Below, piece after piece: positions 52,428 to 60,856 of a stretch of DNA of 64,000 nucleotides; position 1 is the first letter of the stretch, and each line of letters starts with the position of its first letter. Source of the DNA: Deltaproteobacteria bacterium HGW-Deltaproteobacteria-13. Its GTDB lineage: Bacteria > Desulfobacterota > Syntrophia > Syntrophales > Smithellaceae. The notes under the pieces are model-generated. The model did not search any database. It was not told the DNA's origin and saw only the letters and a program-made list of their open reading frames with translations. The stretch covers positions 62,001-126,000 of the forward strand of contig PHBJ01000010.1 of assembly GCA_002840555.1 (NCBI GenBank), written 5' to 3'. A program made the position numbers and the translations under genes.

Positions 52428-52466
52428 GATCTTATCTCCTTCTTTAAAAAGACTTCTTGCGGATAG

Positions 52467-52495
52467 AGTATATGGACAAGGCCTTGGTGTGTCAA
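52467..52495 (-). promoter_or_regulatory. Sigma-70 promoter for the ABM gene
   Basis: Reverse strand TTGACA (52495-52490), exactly 17 bases, TATACT (52472-52467). The -10 ends 40 bases before the ATG at 52427. It sits at the 3' end of the secreted-protein gene. Confidence 0.75.
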
Positions 52496-54088: not shown

Positions 54089-54193
54089 TCTGAAGATACT
54101 TTCCTTTCTACGGGCGCATGAAAAAAAACATGGGCTGCAAAATCAGTTGCCCTGCTTATAAACGAAATACGATCATTTTATTTTTCTGCTGTG

Positions 54194-54222
54194 AGTATAT
54201 GAAGAATGATTTCCCGTGTCAA
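54194..54222 (-). promoter_or_regulatory. Sigma-70 promoter for glf
   Basis: Reverse strand TTGACA (54222-54217), exactly 17 bases, TATACT (54199-54194), about 105 bases before the ATG. The spacer's TTCA end and its -10 resemble the pabB promoter. Confidence 0.75.
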
Positions 54223-55392: not shown

Positions 55393-55700
55393 ACGTCATC
55401 CTTTTAGATCTGGATGCCGCATTTGAGGGCTAGAACATGATCCGACAGAGAACTATTGTCTTTTCTTTTATGAGATTTCAATACTTCTTTTGAGCATTAA
55501 AACCGGGGAAAAGAAATTTCTTTCACGCGCGGAATATATGAAAAATAGTCTCCTGTGTCAATACCGGAAGAGATCATAAATCATCACCGGTATTATTCCG
55601 GCGGATGAAGACCGGGAAAAACAAAAAGATATCTATATTTTTCTCCGAAATATGGTAAAATTTAAGCGAATCAAAAAACAATTTGATATGCGGATATGCC
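55393..55700. other. 308-base gap holding the pabB promoter only
   Basis: Apart from the pabB promoter at 55533-55561 this stretch has no gene, RNA or strong hairpin that I can see. The right half is AT-rich and should contain the promoter of the plus-strand gene at 55701, but no good -35/-10 pair stands out. Confidence 0.5.
55533..55561 (-). promoter_or_regulatory. Sigma-70 promoter for pabB
   Basis: Reverse strand TTGACA (55561-55556), exactly 17 bases, TATATT (55538-55533), about 140 bases before the ATG at 55392. Confidence 0.75.
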
Positions 55701-57666: not shown

Positions 57667-58392
57667 CTAATCCATCATGACCAGAGTATCAATCTTGCCT
57701 GTCGGCGGCATAAAATCTGAATCCAATACTTTAATAATATCGGCATACAGTCTCTTTTTCATTTCACCTAAAATCCCCCGCTTCTTCTGAAAAGTTTTGG
57801 CAAAGGCAATGGCTTGTATCATCAGGTCTTCCTGATTGGCGCAGGCTTTCACAATAATGTTATGCTTTTCCAGCTCCGGAGCGGTGAAACGATTTCCGGT
57901 AAACTGCATTTGTGATAATATATGCAACGGTATGGCTTTTTTAACAAAAGCGTTCATGCCCCACCTGAAAGGGATGCCGATGTTTACTTCGGGAAAGCAG
58001 AAGAAACCTTTGTCCGACCGCATAAATCGAAAATCGCAGGCACAACTTAATATTGAACCATTGCCGAAGGCGTGGCCGTTGATCGCGGCAATCACCGGTA
58101 CCGGATAAAGAAGCAGTTTTTTAAAAACCACATCCATCTCGTTGATAAAATCAACGACCGGCGTATGTTCATTTTTCTGCATTTGTCCCATAATCCACTC
58201 AACGTCTATGCCTTGAGAAAAATTCTTCTCGTCACTAGAGGTAATAATCAACGAGCTTATTGATTTATCGGCAATTATCTCATCGAGCATGGCGTTTAAT
58301 GTTTTGGCAAAAACAAGATTTTGCCTGTTTTCACCATTGGTCATGGTTATAATCGCTACGGTTTCATCTTTGACCCAATTCATGATAGACAT
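57667..58392 (-). CDS. Enoyl-CoA hydratase/isomerase family protein
   Basis: A 241-residue crotonase-fold protein. The CoA and oxyanion-hole regions are FSQGIDVEWI and VIAAINGHAFGNGSILSCACDFRFM. The second catalytic glutamate is in FCFPEVNIGIPF. The spacing is nearer to delta3-delta2-enoyl-CoA isomerases than to hydratases, as the usual first hydratase Glu (in A-G-x-D-I-K-E) is not found. It is co-directional with the FMN enzyme downstream. AAGGGAAAA precedes the ATG. Confidence 0.88.
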   Translation of the reverse strand: MSIMNWVKDETVAIITMTNGENRQNLVFAKTLNAMLDEIIADKSISSLIITSSDEKNFSQGIDVEWIMGQMQKNEHTPVVDFINEMDVVFKKLLLYPVPVIAAINGHAFGNGSILSCACDFRFMRSDKGFFCFPEVNIGIPFRWGMNAFVKKAIPLHILSQMQFTGNRFTAPELEKHNIIVKACANQEDLMIQAIAFAKTFQKKRGILGEMKKRLYADIIKVLDSDFMPPTGKIDTLVMMD

Positions 58393-58753
58393 ATTTTTTT
58401 CCCTTTCTTACTTCCCAAAATATATTATTAACAACCAGCCGGCGATCGTCTCTTGGCGACTCTTCCCGACCGGCGGTCATTTATAGTTACAATAAAAGCC
58501 TTAAATAGGCAAATATTAAGTTTAAAGAAATAACGGTGATTTTAAGGGTAACGGGCTTACGAAATGTTGTATGTCTGATCCGGTTTTACGATGGACTAAA
58601 AAAGAAAACTTCCCGAACCGGCCTGCAAGCAAGCCATTGAAAATTCGATATTTTCCCCCTGAAAAAACAGGTCCTCACTGGGAGAAAATGCTTAAATATT
58701 TAAGAATTTGAGAAATGATATTCGTGTTATTTTTAACTTAACGGCATCACATT
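58393..58753. other. 361-base gap without a gene
   Basis: Nothing codable here. GCCGGCGATCG (58439) and CGACCGGCGG (58468) form a weak inverted repeat. No promoter or terminator stands out. Confidence 0.4.
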
Positions 58754-58849
58754 TTAGAATAATTTAATGTATGCCACGATGACGGCAAAAACCACCAATA
58801 CCACCATCACAACATAATTAAACTTACGTTTTTCTTTAATCCTGGCCAT
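58754..58849 (-). CDS. 31-residue single-helix membrane miniprotein (copy 2)
   Basis: It starts with ATG 58849 six bases after AGGAG and ends in TAA at 58754. The product begins MARIKEKRKFNYV, followed by a 15-residue Val/Ile/Ala-rich helix and the tail YIKLF. The first 13 residues match the other miniprotein at 58900 at 12 positions, and both are exactly 31 residues. A basic juxtamembrane segment then a helix suggests an N-in inner-membrane peptide. The shared reading frame, ribosome binding site and length argue it is real. The role is unknown. Confidence 0.75.
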   Translation of the reverse strand: MARIKEKRKFNYVVMVVLVVFAVIVAYIKLF

Positions 58850-58899
58850 GGCTAACTCCTGTTTAGCTGTCTTTTATCCGCTTGTCGGTTCAACGCTTC

Positions 58900-58995
58900 T
58901 TAGTATAATTTGATAAAAAGAAATTCGGCAATCATGATAATCAATATAATCAACATAACATAATTAAATTTACGTTTTTCCTTGATCATGGCCAT
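58900..58995 (-). CDS. 31-residue single-helix membrane miniprotein (copy 1)
   Basis: ATG 58995 follows GGAGG by eight bases and the frame ends in TAA at 58900. The product is MAMIKEKRKFNYV, then a Leu/Ile/Met-rich helix, and ends FIKLY. Copy 2 lies 50 bases downstream, with its own ribosome binding site; the helices differ (LIILIIMIAEFLF against VMVVLVVFAVIVA) while the basic head is conserved. Selection on the charged head and length, not on the helix sequence, is implied. A longer frame to 59094 has no start signal and is rejected. Confidence 0.75.
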   Translation of the reverse strand: MAMIKEKRKFNYVMLIILIIMIAEFLFIKLY

Positions 58996-59335
58996 AGATT
59001 TACCTCCTGAGTTTTTTATTGTTAATATAACAATTTTCCCATTGCAATGATGGCATGGATAAATAAGATTATTTCCCGATCTGTTTTGTACCAAAGGGAA
59101 TTGCCACTCATTTTACTGCACATTCAGAATGCTAACTGCCGGTAAAACTCCACGGAAAATTATTAGAAGGATGGTGGAGTATAAAAAGTCAAATCGAATC
59201 TGTCAAGAAAATAATGACGACAAGAGACGGGATGATATCCAGGGATAAAAGTTTCCAAATAGTCTTGAATTATCCTTAGCAAAGTATTAGCTTACATTAA
59301 AAGTCTTTCCGGAAAAGTTAACTTGTCATTAAATG

Positions 59336-59344
59336 TGATATAAT
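59336..59344 (+). promoter_or_regulatory. Extended -10 promoter for the 4-HB-CoA dehydratase gene
   Basis: TGATATAAT (TGn then a perfect TATAAT at 59339-59344), 60 bases before ATG 59405. A loose -35 GTTAAC lies 16 bases upstream of the -10. The remaining sequence from 58996 to 59335 shows nothing clear. Confidence 0.6.
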
Positions 59345-59404
59345 AATTCCAGTTGATGAAGATGAAAGATTCCGTAATTTTAAAATTGAAGGAGGCATCA
59401 AGTC

Positions 59405-60856
59405 ATGGCGCTGAAAACCGCTGAACAATATGAAGAAAGTTTGCGTAAGATGAATTTTAAAGTCTACCTGCTGGGCGAATTGGTGAAAAATCCGGTAGAT
59501 AATCCGATCATCAGACCATCCATGAATTCCGTAAAAATGACTTACGCCCTGGCCCAGGATCCCCAACACGAAGATCTGATGACGGCAAAATCACACTTAA
59601 CCGGCGAGAAGATAAACCGTTTCTGCCACCTGCATCAAAGCACTGAAGATTTGGTTAAAAAAGTAAAAATGCAGCGTTTGCTGGGACAAAAAACCGGTTC
59701 CTGTTTTCAACGTTGCGTCGGTATGGATGCTATGAATGCCGTGGACAGCGTCACTTTCGAAATGGATAAAAAACTCGGCACTAAATATCATGAACGATTT
59801 ATCAAGTTTCTTAAAATGGTCCAGAAAGAAGATCTTGTCGTTGACGGCGCCATGACCGACCCCAAAGGCGACCGCGGACTTTCCCCCAGCAAACAGGCCG
59901 ATCCTGATTTATACACTCGCGTTGTGGAAAAAACAAAAGACGGCATTATCGTGCGTGGCGCCAAAGCGCATCAGACAGGCGCCGTTAATTCGCACTGGAT
60001 TTTAGTTATGCCGACTATCGCCATGACCAAAGAAGACGCCGATTACGCCGTCTCCTTTGTCGCGCCGGCCGACGCGGAAGGCATTTCCTATATTTACGGA
60101 AGACAATCCTGCGACACGCGAAAACTGGAAGGTTGCGAAATCGATGTCGGCAACCGTCAGTTCGGCGGTCATGAAGCCTTGATGGTTTTTGACAATTTAT
60201 TCGTCCCCTGGGAAAACGTGTTCATGTGCGGAGAATATGAATTCAGCGGACTTCTGGTCGAACGCTTTGCCGGTTATCATCGTCAGAGTTACGGCGGCTG
60301 TAAGGTCGGCGTCGGCGACGTCCTCATCGGCGCCGCGGCGCTGGCATCAGACTACAACGGAGCGTCCAAAGCCTCTCATGTCAAAGATAAGCTCATTGAA
60401 ATGATCCATCTGAATGAAACTCTTTTTTCCTGCGGAATCGCCTGTTCGGCCCAAGGTCACAAAACAGCATCCGGTACTTATCTGATTGATTTACTGCTGG
60501 CCAACGTCTGCAAGCAAAACGTAACCAGATTTCCGTATGAAATCGCCCGGCTCGCGGAAGACATTGCCGGAGGGGCAATGGTGACCATGGCCTCGGAAAA
60601 AGATTTGCGCCACCCCGAAATCGGCAAGATAGTCGAAAAATATTTTAAAGGAATCGCTTCAGTACCCACTGAAGACCGCTGCCGCATTTTAAGACTGGTG
60701 GAAAATATTACTCTGGGCACGGCCGCGGTCGGCTATCGCACGGAATCCATGCACGGCGCGGGTTCCCCGCAGGCTCAGCGCATCATGATCTCCCGCCAGG
60801 GAAATCTGGAACAAAAGAAGAAACTGGCCAAAGACATTGCCGGGATTAAAGACTGA
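59405..60856 (+). CDS. abfD: 4-Hydroxybutyryl-CoA dehydratase/vinylacetyl-CoA isomerase
   Basis: A 483-residue [4Fe-4S]/FAD enzyme that dehydrates 4-hydroxybutyryl-CoA to crotonyl-CoA and isomerises vinylacetyl-CoA. All four cluster ligands known from the Clostridium enzyme are present at matching spacing: Cys100 and Cys104 (GSCFQRCVGMD), His292 and Cys299 (YHRQSYGGC). The AMTDPKGDRGLSPSKQADPDLY region and the C-terminal HGAGSPQAQR are typical of the 4-hydroxyphenylacetate-hydroxylase superfamily AbfD branch. AGGAGG precedes the ATG. No 4-hydroxybutyrate dehydrogenase is adjacent; the CoA-transferase at 50-52 kb could activate the substrate. Confidence 0.92.
   Translation: MALKTAEQYEESLRKMNFKVYLLGELVKNPVDNPIIRPSMNSVKMTYALAQDPQHEDLMTAKSHLTGEKINRFCHLHQSTEDLVKKVKMQRLLGQKTGSCFQRCVGMDAMNAVDSVTFEMDKKLGTKYHERFIKFLKMVQKEDLVVDGAMTDPKGDRGLSPSKQADPDLYTRVVEKTKDGIIVRGAKAHQTGAVNSHWILVMPTIAMTKEDADYAVSFVAPADAEGISYIYGRQSCDTRKLEGCEIDVGNRQFGGHEALMVFDNLFVPWENVFMCGEYEFSGLLVERFAGYHRQSYGGCKVGVGDVLIGAAALASDYNGASKASHVKDKLIEMIHLNETLFSCGIACSAQGHKTASGTYLIDLLLANVCKQNVTRFPYEIARLAEDIAGGAMVTMASEKDLRHPEIGKIVEKYFKGIASVPTEDRCRILRLVENITLGTAAVGYRTESMHGAGSPQAQRIMISRQGNLEQKKKLAKDIAGIKD

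Follow-up and report, generated by a model that had tools for sequence, protein, structure and literature searches.

The mini-protein Prli42 is 31 residues long. In Listeria monocytogenes it spans the membrane and carries a highly basic cytosolic N-terminal tail (PMC6614362, PMC9840623); it is described as a membrane anchor of the stressosome that is conserved among Firmicutes (PMC9840623), and its residues K4, K5 and R8 affect binding to RsbR, where an acidic patch is found (PMC6614362). A later study reports that a role in membrane localization was confirmed and that the deletion had no phenotype (PMC9840623). Two other described systems are also relevant: YohP of Escherichia coli (27 residues), a small membrane protein with a single helix (PMC7549839, PMC12719787), is reported to change lipid make-up, fluidity and potential (PMC12719787), and type I toxins (e.g., ZorO/ZorP and Ldr) are described as short, hydrophobic, single-helix peptides that are sometimes duplicated, as in the zorO/zorP locus (PMC3919570).

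The window analyzed here, that is, the stretch of 64,000 nucleotides from a contig of Deltaproteobacteria bacterium HGW-Deltaproteobacteria-13, contains two adjacent genes for 31-residue proteins. Their homologues make it near certain that both belong to a real, lineage-restricted and apparently unnamed protein family (16 copies in all), so that a well-supported small-protein family is added to Smithella and its kin. These organisms live by syntrophic fatty-acid breakdown and are hard to study by genetics.

The family resembles Prli42 in having a basic N-terminus before one hydrophobic helix (a head charge of +3 or +4 in all 16 copies), although the cytosolic side of the head is a prediction here; Prli42 was compared by description, and no such family is among the library matches of the members. 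The N-terminal domain of RsbR, the partner of Prli42 (PF08678), was found in none of the 51 genomes of the window's taxonomic family; among 14 control genomes, Bacillus subtilis was positive. By analogy, the family may work like Prli42 in outline, without evidence that it belongs with Prli42. YohP, also compared by description, shares the single helix, and we know of no basic head motif of this kind in it. The likeness to type I toxins lies in length, hydrophobicity, the single helix and the occasional duplication; however, the family has no conserved antisense promoter-like site, and its head, not its helix, is conserved.

Two tandem genes in the window

A first-pass annotation of the window had pointed to two frames of 31 codons on the minus strand, 50 bases apart and each with a good ribosome binding site, and both are found as it described. 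The features of the locus are as follows.

58900..58995, minus strand: first small membrane-protein gene (MAMIKEKRKFNYVMLIILIIMIAEFLFIKLY), 31 codons plus stop; homologues and coding signature
58754..58849, minus strand: second gene, the tandem paralogue (MARIKEKRKFNYVVMVVLVVFAVIVAYIKLF), 31 codons plus stop; homologues and coding signature
59003..59008, minus strand: Shine-Dalgarno AGGAGG of the first gene, read from the sequence
58856..58860, minus strand: Shine-Dalgarno AGGAG of the second gene, read from the sequence
58957..58995, minus strand: conserved head of the first copy, codons 1-13; alignment and column entropies
58811..58849, minus strand: conserved head of the second copy, codons 1-13; alignment and column entropies
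59178..59206, minus strand: sigma-70-type promoter-like site TTGACA-17-TATACT upstream of the pair; consensus scan, 11 of 12 matches
58996..59177, minus strand: presumed 5' leader of about 176 bases, inferred from the promoter position
58850..58899, minus strand: 50-base spacer between the two genes, presumed bicistronic; the second gene has no promoter-like site

The Shine-Dalgarno sequences lie 7 and 6 bases from the ATG of the first and second genes, respectively. A longer frame of 64 codons with a TTG start surrounds the first copy, but it is unlikely to be the gene because the alignment with the relatives begins at the ATG. The two proteins are 52% identical, and pairwise comparison bears out the shared head (12 of 13 positions) and the common tail (IKLY and IKLF) that had been noticed at the outset. 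When the window's own genome (3.51 Mb) was searched with the first copy, only two places matched, the query itself (E 2.5e-13) and the second copy (E 1.9e-5); with this E-value, and with relatives that keep the head despite many synonymous differences, the resemblance of the two frames is beyond chance.

The proposal that the pair arose by tandem duplication, probable at first reading, is supported: a second genome (G011) has a tandem pair in the same arrangement. A tree built from all 16 coding sequences separates those of G000, G010, G011 and G002 from the rest (support 80/91), with the inner order largely unresolved; this tree would fit one ancestral duplication with later losses and two separate duplications alike.

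Comparison with known families

No significant match to any member was found in Pfam, NCBIfam, PHROGs, PADLOC, Rfam or the sequences of the PDB, and the earlier impression that no such family had been described holds for the libraries searched (Pfam, NCBIfam, PHROGs, PADLOC and PDB sequences). At E 0.05, 15 of the 16 members have no match in NCBIfam, and the remaining one (L014) finds only the YniD equivalog (NF041491, a small membrane protein with a model of 34 positions); this match was rejected, with 17 bits against a cut-off of 40 (E 0.0029, residues 8-25). TRIQK (Pfam PF15168) was rejected likewise, since its best match, seen in a few members from genus g2, reaches 18.2 bits (E 0.0024), where curation asks for 27 bits, and extends over residues 9-31, which are mostly helix. 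No toxin family matches above its cut-off, and in the PDB at E up to 10 the only chain is a beta-lactamase (E 1.1). The literature that we searched contains no paper joining Smithella with a small membrane protein and none on the subject with small proteins, although the small-protein catalog of PMC11364881 may hold family sequences without a name.

As read from their genes, the members have the general properties of bitopic small membrane proteins (fewer than 50 codons, one predicted membrane helix and coding selection). Judged by these properties, the family is a new one of a known kind; bitopic small-protein families are numerous, so the surprise is moderate.

Distribution of the family

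The homologues in relatives that the first-pass annotation had proposed to look for were found: with profile searches, the family comprises 16 copies in 14 of the 51 genomes of the taxonomic family, including the window's own. The first copy alone, used as a query at E 0.1, matches 14 of 149 genomes (again including the window's own), and the profiles recover the same 14 among the 51, each at E 1.7e-9 or better. The carriers belong to three genera: g1, the genus of the window (6 of 17 genomes), g2 (7/7) and g6 (1/1). The profile search found no carrier in the four other genera (g3, 0/4; g4, 0/1; g5, 0/20; g7, 0/1); in this search 31 genomes had matches with E up to 1, and 17 of them, with best E-values of 0.0057 or worse, were set aside as chance. 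A frame in g3 (L031, 18 bits) was rejected; it has a TTG start, and no ribosome site is visible in the 100 bases before it. The usual state is a single copy of 30-34 residues (12 of the 14 carrier genomes), and tandem pairs are found in the other two.

Wider searches add no members within the lineage. None was found among 155 genomes of the order, where seven of the 21 matching genomes, at E 0.004 or worse, were dismissed as chance, or among 155 genomes of the class, which are probably the same set. In a sample of 395 genomes of the phylum, four of the eight matching genomes contain known members; the other four, with E-values of only 0.001-0.004, were judged to be chance. When named genomes were scanned, 72 stretches matched the pattern and seven loci were confirmed. 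Six of the seven are on carrier contigs already counted, under the names Smithella sp. (2), Syntrophaceae bacterium (3) and Deltaproteobacteria bacterium (1), and the seventh is in a 'Candidatus Omnitrophota' bin (vide infra). One 33-residue member, used as a query, matched none of 72,556 plasmid and 50,697 phage records, and none of 181 pattern stretches in viral contigs was confirmed; we therefore rejected an origin from phages or plasmids.

Selection on the head and the helix

The head has the consensus MA-x-[IV]-K-E-[KR]-R-K-F-N-[FYW] and is followed by one hydrophobic helix. Residues K5, E6, R8, K9, F10, N11 and L18 are invariant in all 16 copies, although they are encoded by varying codons (five for R8); position 7 holds either K or R throughout. 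Differences summed over the 120 pairs of sequences fall mostly on third codon positions in the head (229, 199 and 645 at codon positions 1, 2 and 3 of codons 2-13); for codons 14-24 the corresponding numbers are 627, 283 and 733. With the Nei-Gojobori method on the first 24 codons, 24 of the 25 closest pairs have a dN lower than dS, and one has no dS estimate; examples are 0.018/0.067 (L010/L012), 0.056/0.39 (L007/L011), 0.055/0.70 (L007/L009) and 0.036/1.17 (L009/L010), and the weakest contrast is 0.13/0.25 (L005/L011). On these substitution patterns, the members are genes under purifying selection. The coding pattern and the dN/dS values thus bear out the initial argument that a kept head and length beside a drifting helix imply selection for a product.

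The same argument had taken the helices simply to differ. Their letters do drift, but the helix is not left free, being held to hydrophobicity: T is at the middle position in 184 of the 224 codons for positions 13-26, and the best stretch of 17 residues has a mean Kyte-Doolittle value of 2.85-3.79 in the 16 copies. By column entropies, the first turns (V13, L15 and L18) are more conserved than the remaining helix; no conserved face was found in the helix (entropy moment 0.121 vs a shuffle mean of 0.181, p 0.73). The helix may, it appears, change its letters provided that its hydrophobicity stays. An AlphaFold2 model of the first copy (from an alignment of eight rows) predicts one helix at residues 2-30 with a mean pLDDT of 87 and a pTM of 0.42; the first ten residues have a pLDDT of 73, lower than the whole.

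Promoter, leader and message

Sites that match the sigma-70 consensus at 10 or more of 12 positions are found within 250 bases upstream of 12 of the 16 copies (vs 7% of shuffles), each time with a spacer of 17. The four copies without such a site in this range are L002 and L016, the second copies of the two tandem pairs, and L004 (the first copy of G011) and L006, which are not second copies. Because the second copies of both tandem pairs lack a promoter-like site, the pair in the window is probably transcribed as one bicistronic message. Among the other leaders that could be measured, eight of 11 are 46-60 bases long.

The form TTGACA-N17-TATACTCC, with up to two mismatches, has four matches in the window, including the site of the pair, where 0.27 is expected; this is a hint of a favored promoter form in the window's genome. 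As sites of the same class are over-represented in the window, the pair's site appears to be one of this genome's ordinary strong promoters. The three additional sites are on the minus strand with one mismatch each (52465-52495, 54192-54222 and 55531-55561); by their positions, they may serve genes for a CoA-transferase-like protein, UDP-galactopyranose mutase and a chorismate-binding enzyme.

Folding of 12 leaders gave mean unpaired values of 0.17-0.67 at the ribosome site, a spread in which no general hiding of the site is apparent. A scan of 58300-59500 on the minus strand gave no terminator-like site, so transcription might read through into the downstream gene for an enoyl-CoA hydratase (ECH). 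Within about 200 bases downstream of the small gene's stop codon, there are stretches that are alike across genera g1, g2 and g6 (L005/L007, L007/L013 and L011/L013) and within g1 (L008/L013); several pairs from g2 that share the end of a PHP gene were left out as evidence. A structured RNA behind the gene was considered and rejected, as RNAalifold gave -3.9 kcal/mol over five rows, that is, no common fold.

Genome neighborhood, gain and loss

In g1 the neighbors of the small gene were assigned with Pfam for the window and recognized from the start of their translations elsewhere. In all six carriers of this genus the gene lies between a divergent HpaB-type gene and the ECH gene; the second copy and ECH are 361 bases apart in the window, where ECH is followed by a gene for a nitronate monooxygenase (NMO) that is also visible at the edge of the loci of G010 and G011. 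In g2 a convergent PHP-type gene faces the small gene in all seven loci (by eye; Pfam PHP for G017), with hemB beyond it in five of the seven (by eye; Pfam ALAD for G017); the other side varies, and the best match to ECH is on another contig in each of the seven genomes. In the one genome from g6, no ECH match reaches E 1e-30, and the neighbors are a frame of 347 residues that has no match in Pfam and, at a greater distance, a gene with a PIN domain. Because the neighbors differ between the three genera, this context identifies the small gene as an autonomous unit and not the leader of one pathway.

The gene is absent from 11 of the 17 genomes in g1, which marks it as dispensable; two of these genomes (G006 and G012) are less than 80% complete, and two others (G003 and G009) are listed as 100% complete. 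G001 lacks the promoter as well as the frame, but it aligns with G007 on either side of them. A TTGACA-17-TATACT site is located 113-141 bases before ECH in eight of the ten g1 non-carriers that were scanned (L061, L063-L067, L069 and L082; the eleventh, G006, has no ECH match and was outside the scan). In the six carriers no such site is found before ECH, G011 having only a weaker one (10/12, with an 18-base spacer). From these positions, the promoter seems to serve either the small gene or ECH: ECH would have taken it over after loss of the small gene, or the small gene would have slipped in behind it. When the region upstream of the window's pair was compared with the region upstream of ECH in the eight non-carriers, six beat the best of 100 shuffles and two (G013 and G005) did not; the part that is alike may hardly extend beyond the promoter. 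The pattern of presence and absence needs six changes on an ECH protein tree of 24 rows, in which six of the 21 inner forks are open. In one non-carrier (L072, from G003), the start of a transposase-like frame (MATEKKQYTAEFKKEAV..., by eye) lies upstream of ECH at the place of the carriers' small gene; one loss may be due to an insertion element.

Possible functions

We tentatively favor a bitopic protein with its head inside, whose basic juxtamembrane head docks a partner at the membrane while the helix serves as the anchor; we give this reading nearly, but not quite, an even chance. The head would be in the cytoplasm because of the positive-inside rule, with the tail in the periplasm. The helix would be an anchor because it is held to hydrophobicity and has no conserved face. 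The head would do the work as a short, basic motif for docking at the surface of the membrane, where it might hold or tune an acidic patch of a partner protein or, alternatively, acidic lipid headgroups; the tandem pair, from one message, might double the dose or present the same head on two anchors. Docking is favored because selection keeps the entire head, including the non-basic residues E6, F10 and N11. A basic juxtamembrane cluster also fixes the head-inside topology and in this respect speaks against docking, although topology by itself would leave the invariance of E6, F10 and N11 unexplained; the dispensability of the gene within the window's genus (absent from 11/17) and the four of 16 copies without a promoter-like site, two of which (L004 and L006) are not second copies, also count against it. 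The invariant head and the replaceable helix raise the direct question of what protein is held at the membrane by KE[KR]RKFN[FY]. In a bolder form of this proposal, which we regard as speculative and rather unlikely to be correct in full, this head is a dedicated docking tag of a membrane-tether system that evolved independently in anaerobic syntrophs (and came to a few 'Omnitrophota' by common descent or transfer); each message, with one or two genes, would present the same head on interchangeable helices and thereby localize a soluble signaling or metabolic complex.

Several alternatives place the function in the helix or in the bilayer. CydX and KdpF are small accessory subunits of membrane complexes, and the size, the single helix and the more conserved first helix turns (V13, L15 and L18) would suit a subunit whose helix stabilizes an integral membrane enzyme or transporter; however, no neighbor is common to the three genera, the 3-kb loci contain no operon with a membrane complex, the conservation is in the head and the helix has no conserved face, and the beta-lactamase chain (E 1.1) is the only PDB match at E up to 10, so that we consider such a role unlikely. 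The length, the hydrophobic helix and tandem paralogues with diverged helices are also what a type I toxin would show, that is, a small hydrophobic peptide that damages the membrane unless it is repressed by an antisense RNA; duplicated loci of such toxins are on record (zorO/zorP, PMC3919570), and one promoter-like site is found on the opposite strand at the end of the first copy (58882-58909, plus strand). In the consensus scan, however, this is the only such site among the 16 copies, no more than in shuffles (10%), and a toxin with a cis antisense RNA was rejected for lack of a conserved one; with the conservation in the head and not the helix, no plasmid or phage match (one 33-residue query), none confirmed in viral contigs and no toxin family above its cut-off, the toxin reading is improbable. 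We give the same low weight to a modulator of the bilayer in the stress response, for which YohP, with its reported effects on lipid make-up, fluidity and potential, is the precedent (PMC12719787): the basic head would bind acidic lipid and accumulation of the protein would alter fluidity and potential. A helix constrained to hydrophobicity alone is consistent with such a modulator; the invariant E6, F10 and N11 appear more specific than lipid binding should need, and the promoter-like sites resemble ordinary sigma-70 sites.

Control of the neighboring ECH and NMO genes by translation of the small frame, as an upstream open reading frame encoding a leader peptide, is suggested within g1 by the place of the frame upstream of ECH in 6/6 carriers, by the TTGACA-17-TATACT site that precedes ECH itself in 8/10 non-carriers and in none of the carriers, and by the missing terminator-like site in the interval 58300-59500. 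Nonetheless, this place is not kept in g2 (7/7) or g6 (1/1), the protein sequence is conserved across genera with differing neighbors, and the 361 bases before ECH in the window also argue against it; for the family as a whole, the changing neighbors largely refute a leader peptide, which we regard as very improbable. Among these readings, docking at the membrane by the conserved head is the one that we prefer.

Similar frames in 'Omnitrophota'

Three places in 'Omnitrophota' contain short frames that have one helix and a similar head.

L049:105-221: short frame of 39 codons with a good ribosome site
L092:1501-1626: short frame of 42 codons, in G647
L093:1486-1599: short frame of 38 codons, in G614

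The first of these scores 34.4 bits to the profile of the 16 copies (E 3.4e-7 when its own genome is searched). Among 147 genomes around it, eight had matches, its own included; two contained the other short frames, and the other five of the eight had only long or broken frames. The G647 frame scores 29.1 bits to the same profile; the G614 frame scores 20.6 bits, which is within the range of noise (18 and 21 bits in other searches). A profile that included all three found G534 and G614 among 384 genomes of the phylum; G647 is missing from the matches, perhaps because the sample did not include it. Of the 16 matches in this search, the remaining 14, at E 1.3e-4 or worse, were dropped as chance; seven of these loci were inspected, and one of them (L100) is a 129-residue frame with several hydrophobic stretches. 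The same profile found the same three in 292 relatives of G647. As sampled by these searches, frames that resemble the family are rare in 'Omnitrophota'. Kinship with the family is probable for L049 and L092 and may or may not extend to L093; common descent, transfer and convergence would all be possible. A gene for a GspE/PilB-like ATPase, recognized by eye in its translation, follows two genes downstream of the L049 frame.
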